A stretch of 49,011 nucleotides of DNA from the NCBI GenBank assembly GCA_028715345.1, contig JAQUSB010000012.1, forward strand, positions 1 to 49,011. Direction: 5' to 3'. This DNA comes from Candidatus Omnitrophota bacterium. Its GTDB lineage: Bacteria > Omnitrophota > Gorgyraeia > 2-01-FULL-45-10. The translations under genes were made by a program, and so were the position numbers. A model generated the notes under the pieces. The model had not been told where the DNA came from, made no database searches, and was given only the letters and a program-made list of their open reading frames with translations. Positions 4,411-49,011 of this stretch are shown here, piece by piece (positions within the stretch are counted from its first letter, which is position 1; the number at the start of each line of letters is the position of its first letter).

Positions 4411-5254
4411 ATGAGTTATTACAGAATATTGGGGCTGGAAGCAGAACCTTTTTCCACAAGCCCGGACCCGCAGTTTTTTTTACCAATCCAAAGAGCACAA
4501 ATCCGTCCTTTACCGCCTACGCATAGCAGTCGAGTTAAAACGAGGTTTAAGCCTGGTCCTCGGCGATGTCGGGACAGGCAAGACGACCCTGTCGAGGAAA
4601 CTTTCCCAACTCTTAAAATCGGATTCGGGCCTCATAATGACTATGATACTAAACCCGATATACGAATCCGAAAAGCAGTTCTTGGCCGATCTGGCCGAGC
4701 GATTTGGGATAAACAATATCCCCGGCTCGACCGTCCTCGATTATCTTAAGGCGATAGAGAAGTTCCTTTTCGAAAAATGCGTCGAAGAGAATAAGACGAT
4801 CGTCCTGCTCATAGACGAATCCCAGAAATTGACCGATCCCTGCATAGAGATACTGCGCACCATCCTCAATTACGAAACCAACGAATATAAAATCCTCCAG
4901 CTTATCATAATGGGGCAGATGGAACTTCTGCCGCGCATAAGTACTATAAAGAATCTGTGGGACAGGATATCGCTAAAGTATATGCTCAACCCTCTCGACG
5001 AGGACGAAGTGAGGGAGCTTATAGCTTTCAGGTTGAAACAGGCCGGCTATGCGTCTAAGCACCTTCTCTTTACCGAAAGCGCCATAGATGCCGTATATAA
5101 CCACAGCCAGGGATATCCCAGGAGGATAGCCATGCTATGCCACGACGCGTTGGAGCACCTTGTGATGCGCAACAAAGGCATAGTAACGGCCGACATAATC
5201 CAGGAAATAATAAAAAATGAGCTGTCGCCTTTCCAGGGCGCGCTTAAGTCATAA
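4411..5254 (+). CDS. gspA: GspA/ExeA-like AAA+ ATPase, interrupted by a frameshift in a T8 run
   Basis: The first 23 codons (FGLxxxPFxxSPDPxFF-type start) belong to the ExeA/GspA family, but the frame then leaves the family. Skipping one base within the T8 run at 4474-4481 restores a continuous 280-residue protein: YQSKEH follows at once, then the Walker A GDVGTGKTT (corrected residues 51-59) and Walker B LLIDESQ (about 132-138). The C-terminal part matches the GspA ATPase lid region. GspA, normally with GspB, energises assembly of the GspD secretin through peptidoglycan; no GspB or peptidoglycan-binding domain is seen here. The stop overlaps the gspC start (TAATG). The break could be a sequencing error, a real mutation or slippage at the homopolymer. 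Confidence 0.82.
4474..4481 (+). other. T8 homopolymer at the gspA frameshift
   Basis: Eight consecutive T follow CAG. Seven would keep the ExeA-family reading frame open through the Walker A motif. The family-like sequence changes frame exactly across this run, so it marks the indel or slippage site. Confidence 0.85.
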
Positions 5255-5925
5255 TGGCAGAGAATATTTCGCCGGAAGAGAAACTCTTCAGGATCATACA
5301 GAAAGAGAAGGCCGCGCCCGCGACGGCAGAACGCCCTCCGGCTTTCCATCCGCCCGCGGCCGATTGGCTCAAAAAATTCGGCGAAACGGCTCTGCAGTGG
5401 AAAGATAGATTACTCAACCCGTCAAAAGCGAAGAAGCTCGTCCTGGATCTGCAGCTGCGGACCGTTAACATATTTTTAACCGCGGTGCTTGTGTTGCTCG
5501 TCGTATCCTTGATATATTATGCCGTGAGGAATTATCCGAACACCGCAAAAGTGACGCTCGCGACGGCTACGGCTCAGACTTTTCTTCCGCCCGAAGCGAA
5601 AAGCGCCGGGCAAGTCCATAGCGCCGGAGATTACCTTAACGCTGCCAGGCAGAGGAACATATTTACAGCCACTCAGGATGCCGGCAGTGTAAGTCAGGAT
5701 GCCGGCGCGCCCGTCCAGGAATTCGACCGGGCCAGCCTGGGCGATCTGAAGGTCCAGGGAATATCGTGGGGCGATGTTCCTAAAGTTATGATACAGAGCG
5801 CGAAAGACAATAAATTTTATATATTGAAACAGGGCCAATCCGTAGGCTCGACCGGTGTTAAGGTCAAGACGATACTTCGCAATAAAGTAGTGCTCACTGC
5901 GGGGGACAAAGATTTTGAACTATAA
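5254..5925 (+). CDS. gspC: GspC-like inner-membrane component of type II secretion
   Basis: The product has 223 residues. Residues 1-68 are cytoplasmic and polar, unusually long and proline/alanine-rich. Residues about 72-92 form a single membrane span (IFLTAVLVLLVVSLIYYAV). The periplasmic part contains RNIF near 135, a hallmark of GspC/PilP-type proteins, and a homology-region-like beta domain at about 162-223 (LKVQGISWGD through VVLTAGDKDFEL). In type II secretion this domain contacts the N0 domain of the secretin. There is no C-terminal PDZ domain, which in classical GspC helps choose substrates. The start overlaps the gspA stop and the end overlaps gspD by 11 bases. PilP is the alternative name if the apparatus is pilus-like. 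Confidence 0.83.
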   Translation: MAENISPEEKLFRIIQKEKAAPATAERPPAFHPPAADWLKKFGETALQWKDRLLNPSKAKKLVLDLQLRTVNIFLTAVLVLLVVSLIYYAVRNYPNTAKVTLATATAQTFLPPEAKSAGQVHSAGDYLNAARQRNIFTATQDAGSVSQDAGAPVQEFDRASLGDLKVQGISWGDVPKVMIQSAKDNKFYILKQGQSVGSTGVKVKTILRNKVVLTAGDKDFEL

Positions 5926-7501
5926 GAAATTTGCCGTAATTTCGATGAGTCTGCTCCTTCTGGCCACCCCGGCCTGCGGAGAGCCGGGCTCATATATATC
6001 CGAGCCCGTCGAGATGTCTCACCATCCTTCTATATCCGAATACGGCATCGAGGGGCTGAAGAAACGCCTTTCCTTAGATATACGCTCGATGGACATAAAC
6101 CAGTTCCTGAAGTTTCTCGCTACCGAAGGCTCGCTGAATATAGTAACTACGAAAAACGTCTCCGGCCTGGTCAGTTTACTCATAAACGACGTGACGATAG
6201 CGGATGCGCTCGAGATAGCCCTTTCCGCGAACAACCTCGCGAGCGAAAAGAAGGAAAATATCATTTCGATAATGACGAACGCGGAATACAAGGCCATGTA
6301 CGGCGTCGATTTTTACGACCAGCGGATGACTTTCGTTTACCAGTTGAAATATGCTTCCGTAAAAAACGTCTCTGCCATGCTTGCCAATATAAAAAGCGAT
6401 ATAGGCAAAGTCATATCGGATGAATCGACCGGGACCATAGTCATCATAGATACTCCGGCGAAAATACGGGAGATGAAGGAAGTGATAAAGCAGCAGGAGC
6501 TGCCTACCGTTACGAGAGTCTACCCGACGGAGACCAAAGTATTCGAAATGAAATACGCCAAGATAGAGACGATAAAAGACGAGTTGACGAAGCTGCTCAC
6601 TCCCGATATAGGCACGATGAGGACGGACACCAGGACCAACAGCGTGATGATCACCGACCTGCCGTACCAATTCAGGCGTATCGAGACGATGCTGCACGCT
6701 TTCGACAGGAAGGCGAGGCAGGTCTTCATAGAGGCGCACATAGTAGAAGTAACGCTTGGCGACCAGTTCCAGTGGGGCGTCGACTGGGAGAAGGTCATAC
6801 GTATAGCCGGCACCCACGGGATCAAGTTCATACCGAGCATATCGCTGCCCCTGGCCGCTGCGACGACGATGGGGACCCTGTCGATACAGACGGCGAATGC
6901 GACGACGCCAAATGCCATCATACAGATGCTCGGCACGGTCACGGAGACGAGGATACTCTCCAACCCGCACCTTACGGTAGAGGAGGGTAAGGAGGCAAAG
7001 ATAGAAGTCATCGAAAAGCAGCCGTATCAGGAAGATACGACGACGACGGCTTCCGGCGGCACTACCACGGCTTCGAAGAGCTATCAGTGGGTGAATGTCG
7101 GCATCACTTTAAATGTTACTACGAGGATAAATAAAGACGGCAATATAAACATGCTCATAAAGCCGGAGGTAAGCTCTATCGAGACATGGTACGGCGGCAT
7201 GGCGCAGGCAGCCGGCGCGGTGCCTGTAGTGAAATCGTCGAATGCACAGACGACGGTAAATGTCAAAGACGGCACTACGATAATCATAGCCGGCATGATA
7301 TCCGACAATAAAGTCAGGACGATAAATAAGATACCGTTCTTCGGCGATCTGCCTGTAGTAGGCAAAGCATTTCAGAACATAAGCGATAATATATCGCGGA
7401 CGGAAACCATAGTCTTTTTGACCCCGAAGCTGGTCGAGGGTGATAAGAGCTTCCTGTTGGAAAAGGAATTGCCCAAGATGTCCGGCGGGATACGGGAATA
7501 A
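5915..7501 (+). CDS. gspD: Secretin GspD/PilQ (outer-membrane channel)
   Basis: This 528-residue secretin starts at TTG inside the end of gspC. Residues 1-22 form a signal peptide; a cysteine follows but the lipobox is poor, so lipidation is doubtful. An N0/STN-like domain spans about 50-130 and two N-type ring domains about 140-195 and 208-285. The secretin core (about 285-515) has SNPHLTVEEGKEA and the signature VKDGTTIIIAGMI followed by KIPFFGDLPVVGKAF, which shape the gate and barrel. It is shorter than classical GspD (about 650 residues) because it has fewer N domains. It forms the multimeric outer-membrane pore through which cargo leaves. Neighbouring gspC supplies its inner-membrane partner. 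Confidence 0.94.
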   Translation: MNYKKFAVISMSLLLLATPACGEPGSYISEPVEMSHHPSISEYGIEGLKKRLSLDIRSMDINQFLKFLATEGSLNIVTTKNVSGLVSLLINDVTIADALEIALSANNLASEKKENIISIMTNAEYKAMYGVDFYDQRMTFVYQLKYASVKNVSAMLANIKSDIGKVISDESTGTIVIIDTPAKIREMKEVIKQQELPTVTRVYPTETKVFEMKYAKIETIKDELTKLLTPDIGTMRTDTRTNSVMITDLPYQFRRIETMLHAFDRKARQVFIEAHIVEVTLGDQFQWGVDWEKVIRIAGTHGIKFIPSISLPLAAATTMGTLSIQTANATTPNAIIQMLGTVTETRILSNPHLTVEEGKEAKIEVIEKQPYQEDTTTTASGGTTTASKSYQWVNVGITLNVTTRINKDGNINMLIKPEVSSIETWYGGMAQAAGAVPVVKSSNAQTTVNVKDGTTIIIAGMISDNKVRTINKIPFFGDLPVVGKAFQNISDNISRTETIVFLTPKLVEGDKSFLLEKELPKMSGGIRE

Positions 7502-7544
7502 TTCGTGCTTGAATATGTGCCGGCGAACCTACAAAGGTGAGGAC

Positions 7545-10415
7545 ATGAAAAAAATCGCAATAATTTTGCTTCTATTCGTCTTCGTATCCGCGACCCCCGC
7601 GCGATATGCCTTCGCTGCGTGGGGCAGTTCGGACAAAGAGTCGAAGCTGCAGAAAGAGTCGTACGAAAAGCTTATAAGTAAGAACATCGAGCTGAGGAAC
7701 GAAGTCGACACATTGATAAAGGAGCAGGAGCAGCTTCGCGAGATCTACAAAGTGCTGCTCGAAAAAGTTAAAACGCTGCAGCGCGACAATGCCCTTGTAT
7801 TGAAGGATAAAGACTCGACCGAGCGCGCGGCGGAGGATGCTCAAAAAGCCATTACGGCGCTGAAGAAAGAGCTCGCCGATTCTAATTCCAGGATAATGAA
7901 GATGCAGGCGGTCATAGGAAAACCCGAAGTCGGGGTCAAAAAAGGCACAGCCGCTTATTACGAGAAGAACATACTTCACCTGAGCAATTCCCTGAAGAGT
8001 TCCGAGGCCAAATATAAAAGCGCCGCGGCGGAAAAAGACGCGCTTCTTAAGGAATTGGGAGAGATAAAGGACAAGCTTGCCGCGCAGAAGATGGATTCGG
8101 ATAATTCGGCGGGTAAGCTTAAAGAGCAGTACGCTAAGATCGAGGCCCAGGCCGGAAAGATCGACGAGCTTTCGCTCCAGCTGGAAGAAGAGCTTAAGGG
8201 TAAACAGTCCTCCGCTGAAGAACTGGAGGATGTCCGCGCCTCTTTAAAGGAAAAAGAAGGGCAGCTCAAAGAAGAGTACGATAAATTTACCGAAAACATG
8301 AGATCCATGGAAGAGATGCAGGCGAAAAAGATCGACGAGCTTTCGGCCGAGCTGAAAAAAGAGCAGGATAGCAGGGAGGACGCGGTTAAGGAACTGGGCC
8401 GGATGAAAGAGAAATTCGCCGGCCAAAAAGCCGGCTCGGAAGAAGCGCTAAGCCAGGTCAAGGACCTGTCCGTGAAGATAGATGCGCAGGCCAAAAAGAT
8501 CGACGAGCTTTCGGCCGAGCTGAAAAAAGAGCAGGATAATAAACAGTCCGCCGCCGGTGAACTGGATAGGGTCCGCGCCTCTCTGCGGGAGAAGGACGAC
8601 CAGATAAGATCGAAGGACGCGGAGATCAAAAACTCGTTATCGGCAGGAGATAAGCTTTCCGAAAAGATCAATGCCCTGGAAGCGGACGCCAAGATCGATA
8701 AGAAGGCCCTGAACGAATACGCCGCACAGATGAAGGAACAGGACGCTAAGGTCGCGAAGATAAAAGAGGAGATCGCATCTTCCGAAGTTAAATTCAGGCA
8801 AAAAGAGAAAGATATCGAAAGCCTGCGCGCAGCAGGCCAGGCTCAGAACCAGAAGATGCGCACGCTCGAGCAGGATATTTTAGAAAGCGCTTCTACTATA
8901 AAGGAACAGGCCGAGAAATTGAAATCTTCCCGAACCCGCATAGACGCGCTCGAAGCGGAGATAAAAAAGAAGAGCGATAGCCTTTCCGCGGCACAGGATG
9001 CTCTCAAATCCCGCGATGAAGATACTAAAAAGCTCAAAAAAATATTCAGCATGGACGAGCTTAGGAAAAAGCATCCCGGCATATTCACGGCGAAGAAAGA
9101 TGCGGTGAAAGAATATACGAAGAGCGACGCCGCCAAACGCGTCAAAGAGGCTATAGATAAAGCAAACGCCCGCCGAAAGATAAAAGACGAGAATCTCCGC
9201 GCGCTGGAGAAGAAGATAGCCGATGCCGTGTCGTCGGAGAACAAGCTCAAGGCTGAATTGGCGAATGCGGATGAGAAGATAAAAGAAAGCCGCAGCGGCA
9301 TAACCGGATCGGAAGAGCGTATCAAGGAAGAGAAGATAAAATTCGATTCGGAAGACGGGAAGATAAAAGAGCTCGAACTCTCTATAAACGGCGTTGCCGC
9401 TACGCAGATGGACCTGCAGGCGAAGCTGGATGCTGCGCCTAAAAAGATAGCCCAGATCGAGGCTACCCTTAAGGACCTGCCGGCTAACCTGCCGAAGGAC
9501 AGTCCGGCCGGATTTAAAACATCCGAGATGAGGTCTTTAGAAAGCCAGCTTGCTAAGGCGCGCGAAGAAGAGAGCGCTCTTAAGGATGAGGTGCGCGCTG
9601 CCGAAAACAAGATCGCAGAATTAAAAGATACGGCAGAGGCGTCGCGCGCGAAAATAAAACGCGATCTCGAGGCGAAAGTCAATGAGTGCAAGACGGAGAT
9701 AAAGGCGTTCGAGAAGAATATAATCGAAAGCAAAAATACGAAGCGCGCGCTGGGCAGGAAGATACAGAAGCTTATGCGCGATATCGATAAACTGAATAAG
9801 AAAAAAGAGGCCGTCCTGGCAGCTATAAAAAAAGACGACGAAGAGATAACGGACCTTAAAAAGATCATCGAGAAAGAAGCGGGCGAAATAAAGGATGCCG
9901 AGGACACCGGTAAGATACCGGCGGCGCAGGAGAATGCCGATGCCGAGCCTGCCGACGAGGCCCGGAATGTCATCTCGTTCTTAAGCGGCCGTATAGATGA
10001 GCTTAAAAGCAAGAATGACGAACTCCAAAAAAGTATAGCGTCCTCGAAGGCCGCGGAGACGGAAGCTGTGCGCGACAGGGAGGCTGAAAAAAGCAGGGCC
10101 GACGAAGCTATTCGAAAAACGAAAAAAGAGAATATAAATATGCATTATAACCTTGCGGTCGTCTACGAAAGGAACGGTATGTATAAAGACGCCGAGCGCG
10201 AATACCTGAAATGCCTCGATCTGGACAATAGCGACGCAGGGGTGCATTATAATTTGGCCGTCTTATACGACGACAAAATGAACAATAATTTTAAGGCCAC
10301 TAAACATTACAGGGCCTATCTGAAGCTGACCCCCAAAGGTAGAAATACCTATAAAGTTCGGCAATGGCTTACCGATATAGAGCTTGAAAGCCGCCTGGGG
10401 GTGGAGGCGCGATGA
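7545..10415 (+). CDS. Exported coiled-coil protein with C-terminal TPR repeats
   Basis: The start is the ATG at 7545, preceded by AGGTGAGG and followed by a clear signal peptide (MKKIAIILLLFVFVSA, cleavage near residue 25, AFA). An upstream in-frame ATG would destroy this peptide. The 956-residue product is almost wholly charged heptad repeat (residues about 40-850), with an internal segment KIDELSAELKKEQD repeated. Residues about 865-955 hold two TPR-like units (NMHYNLAVVYERNGMYKDAEREYLK and a second copy). It should form a long periplasmic rod with a protein-binding end. It lies after gspD and its stop overlaps the sensor kinase start (ATGA), so it may feed the kinase or scaffold the secretion complex. 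No named family recognised. Confidence 0.85.
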   Translation: MKKIAIILLLFVFVSATPARYAFAAWGSSDKESKLQKESYEKLISKNIELRNEVDTLIKEQEQLREIYKVLLEKVKTLQRDNALVLKDKDSTERAAEDAQKAITALKKELADSNSRIMKMQAVIGKPEVGVKKGTAAYYEKNILHLSNSLKSSEAKYKSAAAEKDALLKELGEIKDKLAAQKMDSDNSAGKLKEQYAKIEAQAGKIDELSLQLEEELKGKQSSAEELEDVRASLKEKEGQLKEEYDKFTENMRSMEEMQAKKIDELSAELKKEQDSREDAVKELGRMKEKFAGQKAGSEEALSQVKDLSVKIDAQAKKIDELSAELKKEQDNKQSAAGELDRVRASLREKDDQIRSKDAEIKNSLSAGDKLSEKINALEADAKIDKKALNEYAAQMKEQDAKVAKIKEEIASSEVKFRQKEKDIESLRAAGQAQNQKMRTLEQDILESASTIKEQAEKLKSSRTRIDALEAEIKKKSDSLSAAQDALKSRDEDTKKLKKIFSMDELRKKHPGIFTAKKDAVKEYTKSDAAKRVKEAIDKANARRKIKDENLRALEKKIADAVSSENKLKAELANADEKIKESRSGITGSEERIKEEKIKFDSEDGKIKELELSINGVAATQMDLQAKLDAAPKKIAQIEATLKDLPANLPKDSPAGFKTSEMRSLESQLAKAREEESALKDEVRAAENKIAELKDTAEASRAKIKRDLEAKVNECKTEIKAFEKNIIESKNTKRALGRKIQKLMRDIDKLNKKKEAVLAAIKKDDEEITDLKKIIEKEAGEIKDAEDTGKIPAAQENADAEPADEARNVISFLSGRIDELKSKNDELQKSIASSKAAETEAVRDREAEKSRADEAIRKTKKENINMHYNLAVVYERNGMYKDAEREYLKCLDLDNSDAGVHYNLAVLYDDKMNNNFKATKHYRAYLKLTPKGRNTYKVRQWLTDIELESRLGVEAR
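8325..8538 (+). repeat. 46-base exact repeat inside the coiled-coil gene
   Basis: Positions 8325-8370 and 8493-8538 are identical over 46 bases, 168 bases apart (56 residues, eight heptads). A decayed third copy begins near 8159. This points to growth of the rod by in-frame duplication of eight-heptad blocks. Confidence 0.85.
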
Positions 10416-11605
10416 GGCTGAAAGTAACGCTCATATTCACGCTCTCCATACTTATCCCCACCGTGCTGTTGGCATACTTCGGCCTTAAGGCGGTCAGGAG
10501 CGAGCGATCGATCGTCGAGCGGAGCATGCAGGAGCGGTACGAGACCATGGCTGATATCATCGAAAACGAGATCGATACTACGCTCGCCGGCGTTTCGCGC
10601 TCGTTTGTTAAAAATAAAACGGTCGTAGAATTGATAATCCTCGACCAGGCGTCGTTATTCAAAGACCAGGTATCCGTGCACAGGGCCGACGGCTCCGTCC
10701 TGGGGGAGGCCGATAAAAAATACCTGAAGAATCCTGTAGTGACGCGGCGGCTTAAGAACCTGCCGTATACGCTGACCGTATACGAGCGTTACCCGGCGCT
10801 TTTGGAAAGATACGAGGACAGGAAGAAAGCCCTCTATTTTTACGTTACGATAATAGCGATATCCGCGGTCTTGATACTTGCGGGCGCCGCGTTTACCCTC
10901 GGCGCATTGTCGCGGCAGTGGCAGCTGGCTGAGCTCAAGAGTGAGTTCGCATCCAGCCTTTCGCACGACCTCCGCCGCCCGCTCACATCCATACGGATGT
11001 TCTCCGAGATGCTGAAAGACAACCTTGTCGCCAGCGACGAGAAACGCCGTGAATATTACACCGCGATAAATAGCGAATCGGAGCGGCTTACCCAGCTTGC
11101 GAATAATATACTCGATTTTTCCCGCATAGAGAACGGCCGTAAGGTCAAGCATTTGAAACAGGAAGATGTCGCCAGGCTCGTGAAAGAGACGGTCGACTAT
11201 TTCCAGTCTTACAGCCTGGACGAGGCTCATCCCGTTTCGATATCGATACCGCAAGGACTGCCCTTCATACGTATAGATGCAAGCACGATATCCCAGGCCA
11301 TCCTTAACCTTCTATCTAATGCCGCCAAATATTCCGATCCGGGCAAAGCCATAAAAGTTTCCGTAAAGAAAAGGCTCAAAGACCTGGCGATCGAGGTCGC
11401 CGACGAAGGTACGGGCGTACCTAAATCCGAACAGAAGAAGATATTCCGTAAATTTTACCGCGTCCATAAAGATACGGCTGACGTGGAAGGCTCCGGGCTT
11501 GGGTTGGCGCTGGTCAAATACGCCGCAGAGATCCACGGCGGACGTGTCGAACTCGTAAGCAAAGTAGGCGAGGGCAGCAGATTTACGCTCACCCTGCCGC
11601 TATAA
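10412..11605 (+). CDS. Membrane sensor histidine kinase
   Basis: This 397-residue kinase has membrane spans at about 5-25 and 141-165 enclosing a periplasmic sensor of about 115 residues of no recognised family. No HAMP domain is evident; the second span leads within about 10 residues to the dimerisation helix. The phospho-acceptor is His185 in SLSHDLRRPLTS. The ATPase domain shows the N box (LNLLSNAAKYS, Asn303), G1 (DEGTGVP, 331-337), F box (FRKFYR) and G2 (GSGLGLA, 360-366). It is complete. The start overlaps the coiled-coil/TPR gene, and the partner regulator follows by five bases. Kinase before regulator is the reverse of the commonest order. The periplasmic coiled-coil protein is a plausible signal source by position. 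Confidence 0.95.
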   Translation: MRLKVTLIFTLSILIPTVLLAYFGLKAVRSERSIVERSMQERYETMADIIENEIDTTLAGVSRSFVKNKTVVELIILDQASLFKDQVSVHRADGSVLGEADKKYLKNPVVTRRLKNLPYTLTVYERYPALLERYEDRKKALYFYVTIIAISAVLILAGAAFTLGALSRQWQLAELKSEFASSLSHDLRRPLTSIRMFSEMLKDNLVASDEKRREYYTAINSESERLTQLANNILDFSRIENGRKVKHLKQEDVARLVKETVDYFQSYSLDEAHPVSISIPQGLPFIRIDASTISQAILNLLSNAAKYSDPGKAIKVSVKKRLKDLAIEVADEGTGVPKSEQKKIFRKFYRVHKDTADVEGSGLGLALVKYAAEIHGGRVELVSKVGEGSRFTLTLPL

Positions 11606-11610
11606 TTATA

Positions 11611-12288: not shown

Positions 12289-12308
12289 CGGCGGACCTAT
12301 GGGACGGC

Positions 12309-12352
12309 TTGACAACTTCTTGACAATTTCTTAACGCGGTTCTGACAACTTT
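12309..12352 (+). promoter_or_regulatory. Candidate response-regulator operator: four 11-base phased repeats
   Basis: Units start at 12309 (TTGACAACTTC), 12320 (TTGACAATTTC), 12331 (TTAACGCGGTT) and 12342 (CTGACAACTTT), exactly 11 bases apart. Units 1, 2 and 4 are close copies and unit 3 is degenerate. The 11-base phase is what PhoB/OmpR-type winged-helix dimers use. The array sits between the response regulator gene and the DUF2341 gene, upstream of a -10-like TATACT. Confidence 0.7.
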
Positions 12353-12367
12353 TGCCGGGATATAAGA

Positions 12368-12373
12368 TATACT
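12368..12373 (+). promoter_or_regulatory. -10 element TATACT downstream of the phased repeats
   Basis: TATACT lies 15 bases after the last 11-base repeat unit. The only -35-like match, CTGACA in unit 4, is 20 bases away, too far for good unassisted use. This is the arrangement expected of an activator-dependent promoter. Transcription would begin about 35 bases before the ATG at 12415. Confidence 0.5.
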
Positions 12374-12414
12374 AATAGTGTAAGCTAACGTAAAACAAAT
12401 GCGAGGGCGCCACA

Positions 12415-14988: not shown

Positions 14989-15003
14989 ACGCGGAGAAAT
15001 ACG

Positions 15004-34428: not shown

Positions 34429-34454
34429 CGATCGTAAAAACCATAAGAGGGCAT

Positions 34455-36189: not shown

Positions 36190-36205
36190 AAGAGGGGCGG
36201 TAAAG

Positions 36206-36919: not shown

Positions 36920-36926
36920 TCCGCTG

Positions 36927-36980: not shown

Positions 36981-37001
36981 AAGAAGGCAGGGTCTGATTA
37001 T

Positions 37002-37214: not shown

Positions 37215-37222
37215 TATAAATT

Positions 37223-38674: not shown

Positions 38675-38678
38675 CGTA

Positions 38679-40941
<2,263 letters not shown>

Positions 40942-40966
40942 AACAAAAACCGGACAGGAGTATTTT

Positions 40967-42667
40967 ATGGCATTGCGGATCGGGGATATACTGGTCGAAA
41001 AAAAGTTGATAACCAAAGAGCAGCTGAAGATCGCTATAAACGAGCAGCAGAAGACCGGGGAATTTTTGGGATGGATATTGATCAAATTCAAATATATCAC
41101 GGAACGGACTATGCTCGAGGCATTGGCCGAACAGCAGGGCATACCATTCATAGACTTGAAAGCGACCAAGCCCACGGCCGAGGCCATAAAGACCGTCAAG
41201 GCCAAATTCGTCTGGCACTATAAGGTCGTGCCTGTGAGCCTGGCCGGCGGCGTTTTGACGGTGGCGGTTTCTGACCCGTTCGACATGTGGCCGATCGACG
41301 ACCTTGAGGCGCATCTGGGGTACAAGGTGGAGAAAGGGCTCTCCACATCTACGGATATAGCGGAAGCTATAAAAGAGTATTACGGCGTCGGGGCGGATAC
41401 GATAGAGACGATACTTGCAAAAGAAGAGAAAGCCTCCGGCGCGGCCCATGCGGAAACGGCGATAAAAGAGAACGTCCAGGACCTGGAAAAACTTGCCGGC
41501 GACGCATCCGTGATAAAGTTGGTAAACCAGATATTGCAGCAGGCCATAAAGGACAGGGCGACCGATATACATATCGAGCATTTCAGGGATGACGCGGTGC
41601 TGCGTTACAGGGTGGACGGCATACTTTACGATACGCAGGTCAGCGGGAACATCAAATACCTTTATCCTGCCATCGTTTCCCGTATAAAGGTCATGTCGGG
41701 GCTCGATATAGTAGAGCGCAGGCTTCCTCAGGACGGCAGGGCGAAAGTCAGGATAGGCGTCAAGGAATACGAACTGCGCGTATCAGTCATCCCGACGCTC
41801 CACGGCGAAAATATAGTCATAAGGATACTCCCGACGACGATGCTTTTCAGTATCTCGGACCTCGGCATGGCGCCGGCCGACGAGAAGATACTCCAGGAAC
41901 TGCTCGGCCGGCCGCACGGTATCATATTCGTAACCGGCCCGACGGGAAGCGGTAAGACGACGACCCTGTACGCGTCTTTAAGCAAGCTCAACACCCGCGA
42001 GCGTAAAATAGTCACGATCGAGGACCCTATAGAATATGAGCTTAAAGGCATATCCCAGACGCAGATAAATTCCAAAATAGATCTTACATTTGCCGCTATG
42101 CTCAGGAGCATGCTAAGGCACGACCCCGACGTAATGATGGTCGGAGAAGTCAGGGATTTCGAAACGGCCGAAGTCACGATACAGACCGCGCTGACAGGCC
42201 ATCTCGTCTTTTCCACCATCCACACAAATGATGCAGCCAGCGGTGCGACCCGTCTTATAGATATAGGCATAGAGCCGTACCTGATCGCCTCGTCGGTAAA
42301 CGCTTTCATTGCGCAGCGTCTTGTGCGCACCATCTGTAAGAACTGCAAAGAACCTGTGAAGATGAAAAACGACAAATTCAAAGCCGAAGGCGTAACTTTG
42401 GGCAAAGAGATAACGGTATATCGCGGTAAGGGCTGCAAGGCGTGCAATAATACCGGTTATATGGGCAGGACCGGCATATACGAGATACTTTTGGTCAATG
42501 AAGAGATAAAGAAGCTGATAGTCCAGAAGACATCTTCCGATGTCATAAAAGAGAAAGCCGCCGAACTGGGTATGCATACGCTTTTACAGGACGGTTGGAC
42601 GAAGATACTTTCGGGGGCGACTACGATCGAAGAGATCATAAGAGTCATACAGTTGGAAGGAGTTTGA
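40967..42667 (+). CDS. gspE: GspE/PilB-type secretion ATPase
   Basis: This 566-residue cytoplasmic hexameric ATPase powers pseudopilus growth. An MshEN-type N-terminal domain spans about 1-145 (RIGDILVEKKLITKEQL). The motor core has Walker A GPTGSGKT (324-331), the Asp box IEDPIE (351-356), Walker B PDVMMVGEVRD (387-397) and the His box GHLVFSTIHTND (411-422). Two CxxC pairs (Cys457/Cys460, Cys490/Cys493) form the zinc site found in GspE and PilB. ACAGGAG before the ATG is a good ribosome binding site. It opens the second half of the secretion set, far from gspC and gspD; gspF starts one base after its stop. Confidence 0.96.
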   Translation: MALRIGDILVEKKLITKEQLKIAINEQQKTGEFLGWILIKFKYITERTMLEALAEQQGIPFIDLKATKPTAEAIKTVKAKFVWHYKVVPVSLAGGVLTVAVSDPFDMWPIDDLEAHLGYKVEKGLSTSTDIAEAIKEYYGVGADTIETILAKEEKASGAAHAETAIKENVQDLEKLAGDASVIKLVNQILQQAIKDRATDIHIEHFRDDAVLRYRVDGILYDTQVSGNIKYLYPAIVSRIKVMSGLDIVERRLPQDGRAKVRIGVKEYELRVSVIPTLHGENIVIRILPTTMLFSISDLGMAPADEKILQELLGRPHGIIFVTGPTGSGKTTTLYASLSKLNTRERKIVTIEDPIEYELKGISQTQINSKIDLTFAAMLRSMLRHDPDVMMVGEVRDFETAEVTIQTALTGHLVFSTIHTNDAASGATRLIDIGIEPYLIASSVNAFIAQRLVRTICKNCKEPVKMKNDKFKAEGVTLGKEITVYRGKGCKACNNTGYMGRTGIYEILLVNEEIKKLIVQKTSSDVIKEKAAELGMHTLLQDGWTKILSGATTIEEIIRVIQLEGV

Positions 42668-42668
42668 T

Positions 42669-43934
42669 ATGCCCATATATTCGTATTCGGCGAAACGCGG
42701 TCCCGGTAAACCCGTTTCCGGAGAGATAGAAGCTCCGACGCAGGAAAATGCCCTTGAAAAGATCGAGGAGATGGGGATGATCCCCGTCAAAATAGAAGAG
42801 AAGGGCCAGGCGCAGAAGGCGGCCAAAAGGCCCGCCCCGGAGAAGAAGCCTGTATTTATAGATCGTAACCAGGTTCATTCCGTTACGCCGGGCTTGAAGG
42901 CAAAAGTAAAGAGCGGAGCCCTGGATACGTTTACGAGGCAGCTTGCGAGCCTGGTAAAGTCCAACGTGCCCATGCTGCAGGCGCTGGCTCTGCTCGCGAA
43001 GCAGACCGAAGACAAGACGTTAAAAGGCATCGTCTTCGACCTTGGTAAGCAGATCAAAGACGGTAAGATGCTGTCGGAGGCTATGTCGGTATATCCGAAA
43101 ATATTCAATAACATGTATTTAAGCATGATAAGATCGGGCGAACGCAGCGGTACGCTCGACGAGGTTTTGTACAGGCTTGCCGAACACCGCGAACGCGAGC
43201 AGGAATTAAGGCATAAGATACAGGCGGCTTTAGCGTATCCGGTCCTTGTAATAGTGGTAGGGGTGGGTACGATATTCGTGATGCTGACATATTTTTTGCC
43301 GAAACTTACCGTGATCTTCAAAGGTATGAAGCAGGAATTGCCGTTGCCGACCAAGATACTCATGGGCATCACGGATTTCATGTCCGCCTACTGGTATCTT
43401 CCCGCCATCGTCTGCATATTCCTGGTATTCATGCACCCGAGATCCGGATCGCGCAAGAAGGTATTGTTCGACATGATCAAGATGCATATACCTTTCCTGT
43501 ATAAATTTACGCGCGACGCCGAGATAGCGAGGTTCGCCAAGTCGCTGGCGATACTGCTCAAAAACGGCCTCGCCGTCCATGAAAGCCTGGAACTTGCCGC
43601 GAGCTCTATCGATAACGAGGCTATGAAAGAATCGATCGCCCGCGCGGGCAGGGACATCATCGACCACGGCATGTCGCTGTCGACAAGTTTCGCAAAGACG
43701 AACATATTCCCGGAATTTACCATAAATATGATATCGGTAGGAGAAGAGAGCGGGAGAGTGACGGAAGCCCTCGATGAAATAGCGAACGTTTACGAGAGGG
43801 AAGTCAACCAGACGATAAAGATAATGTCGGCCCTCATGGAACCGGTGCTGATACTTATCGTCGGAGCCGTGGTCGGTTTCATCGTGTTCGCCATGCTGAT
43901 GCCGGTATTCAATATAGGGCTGGCGGGACGATGA
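42669..43934 (+). CDS. gspF: GspF/PilC-type inner-membrane platform protein
   Basis: This 421-residue protein has the family layout: a charged N-terminal cytoplasmic domain beginning with PIYSYSAKRGPGKPVSGEIEA, two repeated GspF domains (about 85-205 and 290-410) and three membrane spans near 193-218, 240-260 and 388-413. Hallmarks are FTRQLASLVKSNVPMLQAL (first copy), FAKSLAILLKNGLAVHESL (second copy) and SVGEESGRVTEAL. It couples the GspE motor to pseudopilin assembly. GGAAGGAG precedes the ATG. Its stop overlaps the metallopeptidase start (ATGA). Confidence 0.96.
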   Translation: MPIYSYSAKRGPGKPVSGEIEAPTQENALEKIEEMGMIPVKIEEKGQAQKAAKRPAPEKKPVFIDRNQVHSVTPGLKAKVKSGALDTFTRQLASLVKSNVPMLQALALLAKQTEDKTLKGIVFDLGKQIKDGKMLSEAMSVYPKIFNNMYLSMIRSGERSGTLDEVLYRLAEHREREQELRHKIQAALAYPVLVIVVGVGTIFVMLTYFLPKLTVIFKGMKQELPLPTKILMGITDFMSAYWYLPAIVCIFLVFMHPRSGSRKKVLFDMIKMHIPFLYKFTRDAEIARFAKSLAILLKNGLAVHESLELAASSIDNEAMKESIARAGRDIIDHGMSLSTSFAKTNIFPEFTINMISVGEESGRVTEALDEIANVYEREVNQTIKIMSALMEPVLILIVGAVVGFIVFAMLMPVFNIGLAGR

Positions 43935-44713
43935 TCGGGCGGATGGTTACCGTAGCGGCGATCGCGCTCTTCCTTTCGTATTCCGTCTCCTGCGCGGAAG
44001 AGTGGAGAGAGCTTAAGAGCGAACATTTTATAGTCTATTATTTCGACGGCGAAAATTTTGCGCGCGAAGTTTCGCAATGGGCGGAGAAATATTACGATAA
44101 TATAGCCTCCGATCTGGGCTACGCGCGATACGATAATTTCTGGACGTGGGACAAGCGGGTAAAGATCTTTCTCTACCGCAGCCGCGAGGAGTACCTGCGT
44201 TCGACTTCGGCTCAAAATTGGTCGTACGGTTTTGCGAATTATTACAAAAAAGAGATAGTCAGTTACGCAAACAGCGCTAAATTCATAGATACGCTGCTGC
44301 CGCATGAAATAACGCACCTTGTCTTCAGGGATTTCGTCGGGTTTAAAGGGGAGGTACCCATATGGCTCGACGAGGGAGTGGCGCAATGGGAAGAGGCGGG
44401 TAAAAGGAAGGCATCGGCCGAGATGATGAAGGCGCTGATAGCCCGGGGAGAGATAATCCCGCTGGAGCAGCTGATGCGTATGGACGTGTCCCGGGAAAGC
44501 AACGAATCGGCGACGAACAGATTTTATATCGAGGCGATAACGCTGGTCGGTTTTATGATACGCGAATACGGAGAATCGAAATTTACGCTTTTTTGCCGGC
44601 AGCTGCGCGACGGCGCGACGGTGAATAAGGCGCTCGAATTTACATATTCCGATTCTATGCGTAATATAGATGAACTCGAGAAGAAATGGATCGAGTATTA
44701 CAAAAGGGGGTAA
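43931..44713 (+). CDS. Exported zinc metallopeptidase, peptidase MA-like
   Basis: The product has 260 residues with a signal peptide (residues 1-22, hydrophobic VTVAAIALFLSYSV). The zinc site HEITH (125-129) is followed 19 residues later by WLDEGVAQ, whose Glu148 is the likely third ligand, as in gluzincin peptidases of the MA-like group. It is complete and the catalytic residues are present. It is embedded between gspF and gspG, overlapping the first and ending two bases before the second, so it is made with the secretion apparatus. Processing of cargo, a pseudopilin partner or cell wall are possible jobs; the sequence does not decide. It is not the prepilin peptidase, which is an integral-membrane aspartic protease. 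Confidence 0.85.
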   Translation: MIGRMVTVAAIALFLSYSVSCAEEWRELKSEHFIVYYFDGENFAREVSQWAEKYYDNIASDLGYARYDNFWTWDKRVKIFLYRSREEYLRSTSAQNWSYGFANYYKKEIVSYANSAKFIDTLLPHEITHLVFRDFVGFKGEVPIWLDEGVAQWEEAGKRKASAEMMKALIARGEIIPLEQLMRMDVSRESNESATNRFYIEAITLVGFMIREYGESKFTLFCRQLRDGATVNKALEFTYSDSMRNIDELEKKWIEYYKRG

Positions 44714-44714
44714 T

Positions 44715-45146
44715 ATGACAGGATCATCGAAAAGGAAACAGGGTTTTACGCTTATAGAGCTGATGATAGTAGTCATTATAATAGCAGCCCTCGCGGCCAT
44801 GATAGTGCCGCGTTTGTCCAACAGGGCCGACCAGGCGAAGGTGACGGTAGCGCAATCCGATATAAACGCGAATATGGCGACGGCTCTGAAGCTGTATCAG
44901 CTCGATAACGGTAATTTCCCGTCCTCAGAGCAGGGCCTCGATGCGCTTTTGGACAAACCGGCCTCCGAGCCCGCCGCCAATAACTGGAACGGTCCGTATC
45001 TGGAAACGAGACCGGTCGACCCCTGGGGAAATGTTTATAAATACAGGTGCCCCGGTACGTACAACAAAAATGGTTACGACCTTTATTCGGCGGGGAAGGA
45101 CGGTACGGAAGGGACGGAGGATGATATTACGAATTGGACCAAATAA
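44715..45146 (+). CDS. gspG: Major pseudopilin GspG
   Basis: The start at ATG 44715 follows AAAGGGGG and places a class III signal near the N-terminus (SSKRKQG-FTLIELMIVVIII); an earlier in-frame ATG at 44670 lies inside the peptidase gene. The mature protein has the invariant Glu5, the hydrophobic assembly helix, and the GspG C-terminal signature (NFPSSEQGLDALLDKP, WNGPYL, DPWGN-x-YKYRCPG, YDLYSAGKDG), where calcium binds in GspG family members. The product has 143 residues, usual length. It builds the pseudopilus shaft. Its end overlaps the next pseudopilin by 26 bases. Confidence 0.96.
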   Translation: MTGSSKRKQGFTLIELMIVVIIIAALAAMIVPRLSNRADQAKVTVAQSDINANMATALKLYQLDNGNFPSSEQGLDALLDKPASEPAANNWNGPYLETRPVDPWGNVYKYRCPGTYNKNGYDLYSAGKDGTEGTEDDITNWTK

Positions 45147-45618
45147 GACAGGTCTTCGCACAAAAAAAGGTTTTACTCTTATAGAGATACTTACTGCGGT
45201 TGCTATCCTTTCCGCCGGGATCATAGGCGTGATCAGAAGTTATATGGTATTGATGAATGCAGCCGAGGTATCGTATTTTACCGTGCAGGCTTCGTACCTT
45301 TTGAAGACGGAGATGGCCCGGATAGAAAAGGAAGCGATAGATAACTGCGGCATTAGCGCCGGCACGAAAAGCGGAAATTTCGAAGCCCCTTATTCGAATT
45401 TTAGCTGGCATGCAGAGCTGGCGGAACTTAAAGTGAGTAAGGCGAGCGAAGGAGCTAAAGGCGACGGCTCGTCGGCAAAGAGCGCTCAGGCTGCGGCGGA
45501 TGAACAGGCGGTGGAAGTCCTTCTGACCAAGGTGCACCTTACGGCGATGAAAGGCTCTTTGTATGCCTCCGGCCAGAAACTGAGTCTCTGGACATACCTG
45601 GAGAATTATTTAGAGTGA
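45121..45618 (+). CDS. gspI: Minor pseudopilin, GspI-like
   Basis: The chosen ATG at 45121 gives 165 residues, lies eight bases after GAAGG and overlaps gspG. The class III signal is KTGLRTKKG-FTLIEILTAVAILSAGIIGV, cleaved after Gly with Glu at +5. The rest is weakly conserved, with a Ser/Ala-rich insert around 110-130. Assignment to GspI is by order (G-I-J-K) and by its long AVAILSAGI helix; GspH is the alternative. It should sit at the pseudopilus tip with J and K. Confidence 0.8.
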   Translation: MILRIGPNKTGLRTKKGFTLIEILTAVAILSAGIIGVIRSYMVLMNAAEVSYFTVQASYLLKTEMARIEKEAIDNCGISAGTKSGNFEAPYSNFSWHAELAELKVSKASEGAKGDGSSAKSAQAAADEQAVEVLLTKVHLTAMKGSLYASGQKLSLWTYLENYLE

Positions 45619-46340
45619 GATCGGGATATTCGAACCGCAAAGCTATACGGGCTTTTACGCTTGTCGAGCTGCTTATTACGGCTTCGCTTATGGCGCTCGT
45701 AGCGGTGGCGATACTTTCGGTATTTGCCGCAGGAGTGAAGGTCTACGAGAGGGTTCGGGCTTACAGCGACGCTCGGACAGATATGCTCTTTTCTCTGGAA
45801 GAGATGGAGCGGGATTTGCGCAGCGTGCGTAATATTTCGCAGATAAAATTCGCAGGCGAGTCCGGCAAGGTTACGTTTCCCGCGGTAGTTCACACGAACT
45901 TCGCAGGCAAGGCAGGCACATCGCTGGGCAGCATATCTTATTACATAGACGACAGTTCCCATTATCTTGTCAAGGAAGAGAGGGACTATTCGGCCGCTAC
46001 CGCAATGGAGCCTCCGGAAGGCTTTATTACGGAAATGGTCTATGCTGAGAATATAAAATTCAGCTACTATTGCTACGACCGTGATTCGAAATCGTTTTCC
46101 TGGAAAGAGGTCTGGGCGGAGGAAGATGATCTGGCCGGCGGCGCCTCGCCGGGAAAGTCTTCGCCGCCGGCAGGGGTTGCGGCCGATAAGAAGAATATCG
46201 TTCACACGCCTCTGGGGATAAAGATAGAGATAGGTTGTGAAAGTAACGGGGAAAGCCTTGTCCTGACCAGGATGGTTTTTTTCCCGCTGGCGGTTTTCGA
46301 ATATTATTTGACGGTGGCAAATGAAAAAATGCAGCGGTAG
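45615..46340 (+). CDS. gspJ: Minor pseudopilin, GspJ-like
   Basis: The product has 241 residues from GTG, overlapping the preceding stop as GTGA. The prepilin signal is AIRA-FTLVELLITASLMALVAVAILSVF; Ala replaces the usual Gly before the cleavage site, which prepilin peptidases can tolerate. The body has the GspJ-type long loop after the helix (YERVRAYSDARTDMLFSLEEMERDLRSV). A low-complexity Gly/Ala/Pro stretch at about 175-192 is unlike the rest. It precedes gspK, overlapping by 20 bases. Confidence 0.82.
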   Translation: MRSGYSNRKAIRAFTLVELLITASLMALVAVAILSVFAAGVKVYERVRAYSDARTDMLFSLEEMERDLRSVRNISQIKFAGESGKVTFPAVVHTNFAGKAGTSLGSISYYIDDSSHYLVKEERDYSAATAMEPPEGFITEMVYAENIKFSYYCYDRDSKSFSWKEVWAEEDDLAGGASPGKSSPPAGVAADKKNIVHTPLGIKIEIGCESNGESLVLTRMVFFPLAVFEYYLTVANEKMQR

Positions 46341-47349
46341 CGTTCTTATAATAGTCCTGTGGTCGTTATTTATGCTTTCCGCCCTTGCCGCGGCAATAAG
46401 CGGGTATGTCAATTCCCGTATATCGCTGGCGGGCAAATTGTCGGAACGCGCGATCGGATATTATATGGCTAAGGCCGGCCTGGAACGCGCCATAGCCGAG
46501 GTCAAGATATTGCCGGTTAAAAAATACGACATGACACTGGATCCGTGGGCGTCTAACGATGAGATATTCAAAGACGTGAAGCTGGGCAGCGGCTCTTACA
46601 GCGTCATAGGCCTTCGAGATTTGCCTGCCGCTGCGGCGGAGGACGGCAAGGTCGAGTACGGCATGTCCGACGAGGAGAGCAAGATAAACATAAATAAGGC
46701 GCCGCAAGATGTGTTGAAGAACCTCCTCGAAATAGTCGGCGGTATCGACAGCGAAGAATCCGGCAAGATCGCTTATTCCATCATAAATTGGCGAAGCCCC
46801 GCGGATCGGGCAAATAAGGAAGGTTCCGGCTCTTTCCGTTATCAGTCCCTCGACAGGCCTTATAACTGTAAGAACGCGCCCATGGAAACGATCGAAGAGC
46901 TGCTGCTGGTCGACGGCATAACGCCGGAGATATTTGCCAGGATAAAAAGCAGGATCACTATATACACTAACGGCGCGGTAAATATAAACACAGCCGATGA
47001 GATGGTGCTGCGCGCTTTAGGTATGAGCGAAGAGCTTGCCAAAAAGATCGCTTCTTTACACGGCGCCGCCGTCGTCCAGAACGGCGATCCCGAAGAGACC
47101 CTTTTCTTTACCGACATCGCCAGCATCCCGGATGCCGTAATGAAAAAAATCTCGATATCCAGCGAAGAAAAGGGTAAAATAAATAGTTTATCCGGCGCGG
47201 GCCTTTTGTCGGTGAAATCGGATAATTTTAGCGGCATAGTTATCGGCAGGTCGTTTGCAGGGCAGAGCCTGACCGGCGGAGCTAAGATAGCTTTCGTTTT
47301 CGATCGGAACGCAAATGTAATAAAGTATTGGAGCGAGAATGTTTTTTAA
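46321..47349 (+). CDS. gspK: GspK-like tip pseudopilin
   Basis: The product has 342 residues. The N-terminus (MKKCSGSVLIIVLWSLFMLSALAAAISGYVNSR) is the GspK type, with no conserved Glu5 in the helix. Typical GspK features follow: EESKININKAPQDVLKNLL (about 115-133) and VDGITPEIFARIKSRITIYTNGAVNINTADEMVLRALG (about 195-235), two helix-hairpin-helix-like SAM segments. GspK caps the pseudopilus and binds I and J. The start lies within gspJ and the end overlaps gspL by 11 bases, so translation is tightly coupled. Confidence 0.92.
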   Translation: MKKCSGSVLIIVLWSLFMLSALAAAISGYVNSRISLAGKLSERAIGYYMAKAGLERAIAEVKILPVKKYDMTLDPWASNDEIFKDVKLGSGSYSVIGLRDLPAAAAEDGKVEYGMSDEESKININKAPQDVLKNLLEIVGGIDSEESGKIAYSIINWRSPADRANKEGSGSFRYQSLDRPYNCKNAPMETIEELLLVDGITPEIFARIKSRITIYTNGAVNINTADEMVLRALGMSEELAKKIASLHGAAVVQNGDPEETLFFTDIASIPDAVMKKISISSEEKGKINSLSGAGLLSVKSDNFSGIVIGRSFAGQSLTGGAKIAFVFDRNANVIKYWSENVF

Positions 47350-48835
47350 GAATTTCAAGAAACTTAATTTTCACGGTATAAATTTTCAGAAACCATCCGT
47401 AGTCGTCGAGATCGGCAATGACTGGATAAAGATAGCCGAGATCGCCAGATCGTCTTCCGGTGTCGAGATATCAAAACTCAGCCTGCTGAAACTGGCGCAG
47501 ATAAAAGATAATATATCGACCGCCATAGCCAACATCTTCAGGGAGTCCGGTCTCGAACGTCAACATGTCACTCTATGCATCCCCCGGCACCTTATGACCG
47601 TAAGGGTCCTCGATCTGCCTTCCGTCGATCTTAAAGAGATAAACGATATGATAAATCTTCAGGTGGGCAAACAGACGCCTTACTCCAAAGACGAGATAAT
47701 CTCCGCCCATAAGATAATATACAGTGAGAAGGAAGGCTATACGAAAGTGATGCTTGCCATAGTACAGCGTACCATCGTGAACGAGCGCATCGAGGAGCTG
47801 AAGAGTGCCGGCGTAAGCGTCGGAAAAGTTTTTATAAGTTCCGAAGGGGTATATAACTGGTTCAGTTTCTCCTGTCTTCCGGAGATAAAGGCGGCCGATA
47901 CCGATACCATAGCCGTGTTAGACATAGATTCCAATTATTCCGATTTCATAACGATATATAAGGGCAAGATGTCTTTTACGAAAAATATATTCATAGGTTC
48001 GAACCATCTTTCCGAAGCGGCCGGGACGTGGAAGGACAAACTGATAGAAGAGCTGGACCGTTGCCTGAAGCGTTACTATATAGAGGAAAAGAATACCAGG
48101 ATAGAGAAGCTCTTCATAACGGGCGCAACACGCGATATTAACGACCTGGGCCTTATACTTTCGAACACCCTTGCCATTCAGGCCGAGAAGACCGACGCCA
48201 TGAGAAATATCGCGGTGAAGAAGGACGTCAGGGCCGCGCAGGGCGACAGTATGGCATTCGTTTCGCTCTCTTCGATCGCCGGCACCGTGATGCGCGAGGG
48301 GCAATTCGACCTCGATTTTACTCCGGGCGAGCACAAAATACTGAAGATGATGGAGAAAAAACGCAAAGACCTCGTCATAATGGGCGTGCTTTGCCTGTCG
48401 ATAGTGATGGTCGTTACGTTTTTCCTTTTCGTGAGTTTCTATTATAAAAGCATGTATCTTTACCGGCTGAAGAAACATGTCAAAGAGATTTCCTCCGAGG
48501 CCGGCGAAATAGAAAAGATGAAACTGGGTATCGATCTGGTCAAAGACAACCTCGATACGAAAAATTCTTCGCTGGGTATATTGCACGAGATATATAAGAT
48601 CACGCCTTCCGACATATCGCTTGGCAGTATATATATAAGCGAAAATAAACAGGTTGTTATAAAAGGGCGGGGTTTCGAAATGTCGGACGTATTCAAATTC
48701 ATCAAAAGCCTCGAAGATTCGAAGATGTTCACCAACGTGAAGGCTTCGTACACAAGGACTAAGAGGGAGAAGGAGGGCGATAAGGATGTCGAATACGCGG
48801 AATTCGAGATCACGTGCCCGCACGAAAGGCGTTAA
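47339..48835 (+). CDS. PilM-PilN fusion (GspL-like)
   Basis: The product has 498 residues. Residues about 20-330 form an actin-like PilM domain (SVVVEIGNDWIKIAEI, CIPRHLMTVRVLDLP, AVLDIDSNYSDFITIYKG). Residues about 340-370 are a charged linker, 341-372 contains the membrane span (LVIMGVLCLSIVMVVTFFLFVSFYY), and 375-498 is a PilN-like periplasmic domain with a coiled-coil start and a ferredoxin-like end (DISLGSIYISENKQVVIKGRGFEMSDVFKFIKSLED). In type IV pili these are two proteins; in type II secretion GspL has the same overall plan. It links the GspE motor to the periplasm and pairs with the PilO/GspM protein that follows. Confidence 0.9.
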   Translation: MFFKNFKKLNFHGINFQKPSVVVEIGNDWIKIAEIARSSSGVEISKLSLLKLAQIKDNISTAIANIFRESGLERQHVTLCIPRHLMTVRVLDLPSVDLKEINDMINLQVGKQTPYSKDEIISAHKIIYSEKEGYTKVMLAIVQRTIVNERIEELKSAGVSVGKVFISSEGVYNWFSFSCLPEIKAADTDTIAVLDIDSNYSDFITIYKGKMSFTKNIFIGSNHLSEAAGTWKDKLIEELDRCLKRYYIEEKNTRIEKLFITGATRDINDLGLILSNTLAIQAEKTDAMRNIAVKKDVRAAQGDSMAFVSLSSIAGTVMREGQFDLDFTPGEHKILKMMEKKRKDLVIMGVLCLSIVMVVTFFLFVSFYYKSMYLYRLKKHVKEISSEAGEIEKMKLGIDLVKDNLDTKNSSLGILHEIYKITPSDISLGSIYISENKQVVIKGRGFEMSDVFKFIKSLEDSKMFTNVKASYTRTKREKEGDKDVEYAEFEITCPHERR

Positions 48836-48847
48836 AGGGATGTGGGT

Positions 48848-49011
48848 ATGAATATATTGAATATATTTGCCGGCATGGGTAAGAAAGAGAAGCTAGGGCT
48901 TGCGGTCGCCGTTTTGATAGGATCGCTTGCATTTTTCGACAGGCTCGTATTGATGCCTATAAGCGCCGGTTTCAGAAAAATAAATTCGGAGATAAAATTA
49001 AGCGAGCGTCA
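48848..49011 (+). CDS. PilO/GspM-like protein (partial, runs off the window)
   Basis: Only the first 54 residues are present. They show a short cytoplasmic start (MNILNIFAGMGKKEKLGLAV), a membrane span (about 18-40) and the start of a helical periplasmic part (FRKINSEIKLSE). Place and topology fit PilO/GspM, the partner of PilN/GspL. AAAGGGATG is a plausible ribosome binding site 12 bases after the preceding stop. Confidence 0.78.
   Translation, partial: MNILNIFAGMGKKEKLGLAVAVLIGSLAFFDRLVLMPISAGFRKINSEIKLSER

Follow-up and report, generated by a model that had tools for sequence, protein, structure and literature searches.

We analysed a 49011-base contig of a Candidatus Omnitrophota bacterium (the window; G000:C6, the whole of one contig in a genome of 1.6 Mb and 65 contigs) and found an island in which genes of a type II secretion system (T2SS) type are joined to a gene for a giant secreted protein, a membrane protein that we call P499, and an F-type ATPase cluster that has no subunit a. 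Comparison with relatives established that the island is a real conserved unit that recurs across the class. Judged from sequence, the island probably works as one functional unit, namely a second, specialised T2SS-type system with a P499-anchored giant and an a-less, ATP-driven F-type ATPase that powers a surface machine. The gene order is gspA-C-D, coiled coil, kinase, regulator, DUF2341 protein, giant of 6474 residues, P499, epsilon, b-delta, c, alpha, gamma, beta and gspE-F-peptidase-G-I-J-K-L. Pfam searches bore out the positions given in an earlier note on this DNA, exactly or nearly, for the secretin, the coiled-coil protein, the kinase and the regulator, the DUF2341 protein, the F-type subunits and the T2SS genes. 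The note's description of tight spacing on one strand also held: all genes lie on the plus strand, most gaps are below 50 bp and the largest is 126 bp. Most of its gsp assignments stood as well, except that gspM is only a possible start at the contig end, gspA is split over two frames and the gspC match is weak. What it had called an ATPase cluster could be filled out to an epsilon N-terminal domain, a b-delta fusion, c, alpha, gamma and beta, and a peptidase gene was added between gspF and gspG. The epsilon and c genes fall below the size limit of the open reading frame (ORF) list and were found by reading the DNA together with Pfam.

Relatives were collected by searching the window alpha protein in 117 genomes, from which 40 regions were taken, and by scanning GTDB representative contigs, where the best 80 of 578 relatives were kept. 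The resulting set of 120 loci contained 17 duplicates, merged by alpha sequence, and hence 103 distinct loci. The records that bear them are labelled mostly Omnitrophota and in some cases Lentisphaerae, Kiritimatiellae, Verrucomicrobia, Planctomycetales, Latescibacterota, Brocadiia or PVC (labels as given in the records). We counted a locus as testable when it had enough DNA on the side concerned, which for gspE meant 1.5 kb beyond beta. By this rule, beta was followed directly by gspE in 72 of 75 testable loci, the exceptions being L042 (a kinase and a regulator are inserted, followed by gspE), L069 and L070. P499 lay no more than 3.5 kb upstream of the ATPase in 48 of 56 testable loci (exceptions L025, L089, L098, L132, L070, L102, L127 and L138); the P499 locus counts include the 24 loci that seeded its profile. 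An upstream ORF of at least 900 residues on the same strand was present in 35 of 44 (exceptions L025, L089, L098, L132, L070, L100, L102, L107 and L127). The combination recurs in metagenome-assembled genomes of many studies and in the record of V. archaeovorus, which ruled out a chance neighbourhood or an assembly artefact. Gene order across relatives thus bore out the island of the earlier note as a conserved unit.

The same note had held that gsp genes normally lie together and here flank 33 kb. Two blocks are indeed present in the window, and another set in the same genome is contiguous, but the order of the blocks varies among genomes. In G080 (locus L098, the V. archaeovorus LiM chromosome) and G051 (locus L089) the order is ATPase-E-F-L-M-G-I-J-K followed by A-C-D-coil-kinase-regulator-DUF2341-giant-P499, with giants of 4552 and 4627 residues, respectively, so that the giant and P499 stand at the opposite end of the island from the ATPase. 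The window carries the reverse, with the A-C-D...giant-P499 block ahead of the ATPase-gspE block. G012, whose contig begins at the secretin, is window-like (secretin-coil-giant-P499-peptidase-ATPase-E-F), and G103 follows the LiM order from the ATPase through DUF2341, with P499 farther along the same contig. Since these arrangements differ between G080, G051 and G103 on one side and the window and G012 on the other, the split is a matter of two blocks in genome-dependent order and not an accident of the contig. Contiguous gsp genes with the ATPase and giant at unrelated places, the pattern that the note had named as telling against it, were not what we saw: the gsp genes of G103, G051 and G080 are contiguous, yet the ATPase stands at the front of the gspE block in all three, and the giant and P499 of G080 and G051 occupy the other end of the island. 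The ORF preceding P499 reaches 8471 residues in G095 and at least 8961 in G021. We also considered whether the neighbour in V. archaeovorus is the published giant of 39,678 residues; this was ruled out, as the ORF there has 4552.

The ATPase seems to be missing its channel subunit. A profile search found subunit a in none of the 120 clusters, many of which are cut by contig ends; the same profile recovered 4 of 4 respiratory a genes, three of which had been used to build it. Because the largest gap between epsilon and beta in the window is 82 bp, no unseen a gene fits into its cluster. At the level of genomes, we defined a special alpha by at least 45% identity to the window alpha among the matches listed, which gave at least 43 of the 117 genomes, a count that short fragments may escape; G006:C190, a 45% alpha fragment, was excluded because a beta gene adjoins it. 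PF00119, the subunit a family, occurred in 49 of the 117 genomes, in one copy each, and 22 of these are among the 43 special-alpha genomes. None of its matches lay within 20 kb of any of 51 special alpha places, and in 21 of the 43 genomes it was not found anywhere, although draft genomes can lose genes. One of these 21 is the V. archaeovorus record, in the examined portion of which there was no a gene. The absence of subunit a is therefore firm inside the clusters, and genome-wide it is firm only as a pattern.

Of the remaining subunits, alpha and beta retain their catalytic residues. The catalytic Glu of beta was kept in 76 of 77 sequences and the Arg finger of alpha in 101 of 103. The position of the c carboxylate is Glu in 79 of 100 distinct c sequences and non-acidic in 21, and for 18 of those 21 no second c was found; counted by locus with duplicates included, 22 of 104 lack any acidic c. 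Loss of the carboxylate was repeated: by parsimony, its distribution takes about 12 changes on the tree of alpha sequences, compared with a mean of 16.5 after shuffling. Most c sequences retain the RNPS loop, the part of c that meets gamma-epsilon. The delta part of b-delta lacks the N-terminal domain and alpha lacks its first ~20 residues; the alpha N terminus and the delta N-terminal domain are the parts that meet in ordinary enzymes. Two tandem c genes were seen in L044, L055, L124, L126, L130, L133, L135, L136, L137 and L078, and one copy has no carboxylate in L044, L078 and L124. In L064, L100, L103, L107, L114, L116, L117, L121 and L023 there are two different alpha genes in tandem, which would permit mixed hexamers. 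From known F-ATPase biochemistry, an enzyme with no subunit a, and in some lineages no carboxylate, could not carry out the usual ion translocation and would spend ATP on something else. The ATPase is thus very probably a non-pumping ATP hydrolase.

P499 consists of two units, each a beta-sandwich with a three-helix bundle, behind which come a single membrane helix and a charged tail; in most relatives there is one unit. Two Trp residues of the membrane helix do not vary among 25 sequences. An ORF of at least 700 residues contains a P499 match above 100 bits in 18 of 103 loci, and in such fused forms a giant-type coiled coil that ends in N-P-..W-Y/F-E runs straight into the P499 unit. Where the giant is a separate protein, as in the window and G021, it terminates at the same motif at which the fused forms enter P499. 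We infer that P499, a bitopic protein, holds the C terminus of the giant at the inner membrane. P499 was found in 34 of 117 genomes, comprising 33 of the 43 special-alpha genomes and 1 of the 74 others (a 153-residue fragment in G079), a co-occurrence with a Fisher p of 4e-19 when genomes are treated as independent of kinship. A full structural model (predicted local distance difference test score, pLDDT, 80) and a single-unit model (pLDDT 84) had no PDB match by Foldseek at E <=0.001; VIA-align gave rows with Z of 9.4 and 10.1, which are helical bundles matching the helical part only and give no firm lead.

We call the island apparatus T2SS-type because GspG passes its cut-off and because one protein combines the PilM- and PilN-like parts, as GspL does. 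GspE, GspF and GspK scored best on T2SS models of NCBIfam, yet below cut-off, and the secretin gave nearly equal scores, each under cut-off, for PilQ (216.8) and GspD (216.3). Matches to GspG over cut-off occurred at 31 places in 29 genomes within 15 kb of a special alpha. No PilT was present in the window, where the sole T2SSE match is gspE; a PilT-sized T2SSE-like ORF of 358-365 residues lies ~8 kb upstream in G051 and G080. Elsewhere in the window's own genome, contig C13 holds a second, contiguous T2SS set (gspE-F-G-G-I-J-K-L-M-A-C-D, the last cut off by the end of the stretch examined) with no ATPase beside it, C20 holds PilB- and PilT-sized ATPases, and C45 holds an ordinary F-type cluster with a, c, b, delta, alpha, gamma, beta and epsilon, as identified with our own profiles. 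Since this genome has both the C45 cluster and the C13 T2SS, the island represents an additional system. Several features relate to cyclic di-GMP (c-di-GMP). GspE of the window passes NF053729 and carries an MshEN domain, many relatives have a response-regulator ORF of ~300 residues directly before the ATPase, and the regulator ORFs of G050 and G080, read by eye, have a C-terminal GGDEF-like domain with a GGEEF motif. GspE variants of 720-770 residues (e.g. 740 in the L048:8000-10200 region) bear a C-terminal extension that by eye resembles PilZ (G095), a hint of control by c-di-GMP.

We propose that the complex would retain alpha3-beta3-gamma-epsilon, the c ring and the b-delta stalk, with no subunit a, and that ATP hydrolysis would turn gamma and the c ring against the stalk. 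The work may then be handed to a membrane partner whose gene shares the operon, the candidates being the P499-giant complex and the GspF/GspL platform, and the outcome would be a giant that is deployed, moved or pulled during contact with other cells. Mechanical coupling of the ATPase to the secretion platform or to the anchored giant is an inference. A more specific version, which we consider unlikely, would make the c ring an ATP-turned drive wheel. The Trp helix of P499 would couple its motion, across the inner membrane, to a giant adhesin that passes outwards by way of the type II secretin, so that the cell could glide on other cells, grip them or bore into them; such an engine would have arisen independently of the Mycoplasma gliding motor. 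Several observations weigh against a single island-wide machine. Most c subunits, including that of the window, retain Glu, and both the alpha and the beta of the window score above the NCBIfam cut-offs for the ordinary F0F1 subunits, so that annotation pipelines will label them as ATP synthase. Ten of the 43 special-alpha genomes yielded no P499, including the single-contig G050 and G017, which is 99% complete; P499 lies ~37 kb from the ATPase in G080 and G051, and G080 has a second P499 at an unrelated place. L069 has a different gene behind beta, and L070:8192-12747 (Brocadiia label) is a free-standing a-less ATPase with no T2SS genes, giant or P499 nearby.

Part of this evidence would fit an ATPase that energises the T2SS itself, for instance by turning the GspF/GspL/GspM platform next to GspE or by acting as a strut for it, with the giant as the usual cargo of the T2SS. 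Adjacency to gspE (72/75) is tighter than adjacency to P499 (48/56), and some genomes that yielded no P499, G050 and G107 among them, have the ATPase together with the T2SS. However, ordinary T2SS operons work without such an ATPase, one of them in the same genome; the GspG family is present in 117 of 117 genomes and the special ATPase in 43; and P499 tracks the ATPase (33/43 against 1/74). We regard this explanation as rather unlikely. That the ATPase is still an ion pump, with a subunit a borrowed from the respiratory cluster or a divergent one overlooked, could be argued from the single a gene of 22 special-alpha genomes and from the 79 c sequences with Glu, but it must contend with the 21 genomes that have no a gene (the examined part of the V. 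archaeovorus record included), the 22 loci without any acidic c and the gaps of the window cluster, which at 82 bp or less are too small for a hidden a; we judge it highly unlikely. It is most improbable that the genes are mere operon neighbours with no physical interaction, host-contact genes kept together for joint control. Such an arrangement would agree with the kinase-regulator pair inside the island and with the variable gene order, but the ATPase stays fixed to gspE while its other neighbours change, and P499 both co-occurs with the ATPase and lies inside giant-type ORFs.

If the proposal of one ATP-driven surface machine is true, a rotary ATPase that keeps its ring and lacks the channel would add a third route by which F1 performs mechanical work to those of Mycoplasma G1 and the F1-like X0, and such work would occur in diderm bacteria with a secretion system. 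The proposal offers a concrete way to test what ultra-small and possibly predatory Omnitrophota do with their giant proteins, and makes P499 a candidate anchor that marks which giant belongs to the system.

Table 1. Genes of the island in the window, with coordinates and supporting evidence
Feature	Position	Strand	Evidence and remarks
gspA-like AAA ATPase	4411..5254	+	two frames, 4411-4749 and 4637-5254; AAA_22 in second frame; one ORF in G103, G051 and G080
gspC-like bitopic protein	5254..5925	+	weak T2SSB match, E 0.053; position; homologues behind gspA in G103, G051 and G080
Secretin, gspD/pilQ type	5915..7501	+	PF00263, E 1.5e-42; PilQ 216.8 and GspD 216.3 bits, both below cut-off
Coiled-coil/TPR protein, hydrophobic N terminus	7440..10415	+	true start probably near 7540; homologues behind gspD in G103, G051, G080 and G012
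Membrane histidine kinase	10412..11605	+	HisKA, HATPase_c; two hydrophobic stretches
OmpR-type response regulator	11611..12288	+	Response_reg, Trans_reg_C
Secreted DUF2341 protein	12415..14988	+	PF10102, E 1.2e-21
Giant secreted protein, 6474 residues	15004..34428	+	PATR repeats; C-terminal coiled coil and motif NKPVIEGWFE
P499, putative membrane anchor	34410..35909	+	two beta-sandwich and three-helix-bundle copies, one transmembrane helix, cytoplasmic tail
F1 epsilon, N-terminal domain only, 76 residues	35959..36189	+	PF02823, E 2.4e-10
b-delta fusion (peripheral stalk)	36206..36919	+	hydrophobic N terminus; ATP-synt_B; OSCP 104-172/172, C-terminal part of delta only; TIGR03321 over full length, below cut-off
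c subunit, 70 residues	37002..37214	+	PF00137, E 2.1e-6; RNPSA loop, Glu in helix 2 (alignment)
F1 alpha	37223..38674	+	without ~20 N-terminal residues
F1 gamma	38679..39533	+	PF00231, E 2e-30
F1 beta	39538..40941	+	catalytic residues intact
GspE with MshEN (c-di-GMP binding) domain	40967..42667	+	Pfam; NCBIfam
GspF	42669..43934	+	Pfam
Secreted Peptidase_MA_2 protein	43931..44713	+	PF13485, E 5.1e-15; between gspF and gspG
GspG major pseudopilin	44670..45146	+	true start about 44715; TIGR01710, 155.8 bits against cut-off 88.85
GspI-like pseudopilin	44941..45618	+	true start near 45120; N_methyl
GspJ-like pseudopilin	45615..46340	+	N_methyl, E 0.0037, below cut-off; position
GspK	46321..47349	+	T2SSK_1st, E 1.8e-14
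GspL, PilM- and PilN-like parts in one protein	47339..48835	+	Pfam
Probable gspM start, cut by contig end	48848..49011	+	sequence; gspM-sized ORF behind gspL in G021, G012, G050 and others

The gspA region (window 4411-5254) runs for ~28 codons in one frame and then continues in another, which is either an assembly error or a real frameshift. A secreted protein of Peptidase_MA type accompanies the island in many relatives; its gene sits between gspF and gspG or immediately precedes the ATPase. The upstream neighbours in the window (444-3477) encode a trehalose-synthase-type glycosyltransferase, a Na+/H+ antiporter and a cupin protein, and are apparently unrelated.

The earlier note had supposed that the system was undescribed. 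However, the association of non-respiratory F-type ATPases with pilus-type clusters in Omnitrophota is already published, and credit belongs to Seymour et al. 2023 (PMC10066038), who reported it for 57 of 66 contigs within 10 kb; in the parts of that paper covered here, the clusters were typed with txsscan and named type-4a pili (T4aP), and giant ORFs were treated as a separate trait. Their 'symbiotic' F-type ATPase (sF-ATPase)/T4aP loci are of the same phylum and the same kind as ours, and the V. archaeovorus record discussed there is L098. The criterion for such loci, an alpha within 10 kb of pilus-type genes, describes the window and, for gspE, 72 of 75 loci; the naming as pilus or as T2SS differs. 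For these loci, those parts of the paper mention neither subunit a nor c, and neither P499 nor a type II assignment. Likewise, in the literature searched, with preprints not covered, we found no description of the missing channel, the decay of the c carboxylate or the link between giant and anchor.

F1-like ATPases without subunit a that act with surface proteins are known from Mycoplasma (PMC11864180, PMC3369863, PMC12994834). As far as the covered parts of these papers go, type 2 (G1, gliding) and type 3 (F1-like X0, MIB-MIP) share with the window cluster the absence of a and, for G1, a shortened alpha N terminus, its alpha lacking the N-terminal H1 helix (PMC11864180). In the Mycoplasma F1-like clusters none of a, b and c can be recognised (PMC3369863), whereas the window cluster retains b-delta and c. 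Kinship with types 2 and 3, claimed for alpha in PMC10066038, was not supported by NCBIfam scores; our alpha tree is one without Mycoplasma sequences. The window alpha and beta remained below all cut-offs for MMOB1660 and MMOB1670 (394.2 against 600 and 434.2 against 850) and for MSC_0619 and MSC_0618 (309.1 against 520 and 396.8 against 570), and the respiratory alpha of the same genome outscored the special alpha on the Mycoplasma models (450.5 versus 394.2 and 325.9 versus 309.1).

The alternate F1F0 or N-ATPase shares with the window the gene order c-b-alpha-gamma and a long b that covers delta. The N-ATPases compared, however, carry subunit a and subunit I, and the window cluster is without subunit a; the window also missed the alternate-F1F0 cut-offs for alpha (505.9 against 750.5), beta (488.8 against 752) and b (50.3 against 224.7). 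In the alpha tree, 113 special alphas stood apart from three N-type alphas. The root was set by a beta outgroup on a branch of 4.4, and support was 0.80 for the non-special clade and, with this root, 0.11 for the special clade; the special ATPase may or may not derive from N-ATPases. As for the T2SS itself, the window differs from the usual system in having two gene blocks with the ATPase and the giant between them and in that no gspH was seen in the window; it shares with that system the GspC-L set, a GspG over cut-off and a GspL-style fusion of PilM- and PilN-like parts.

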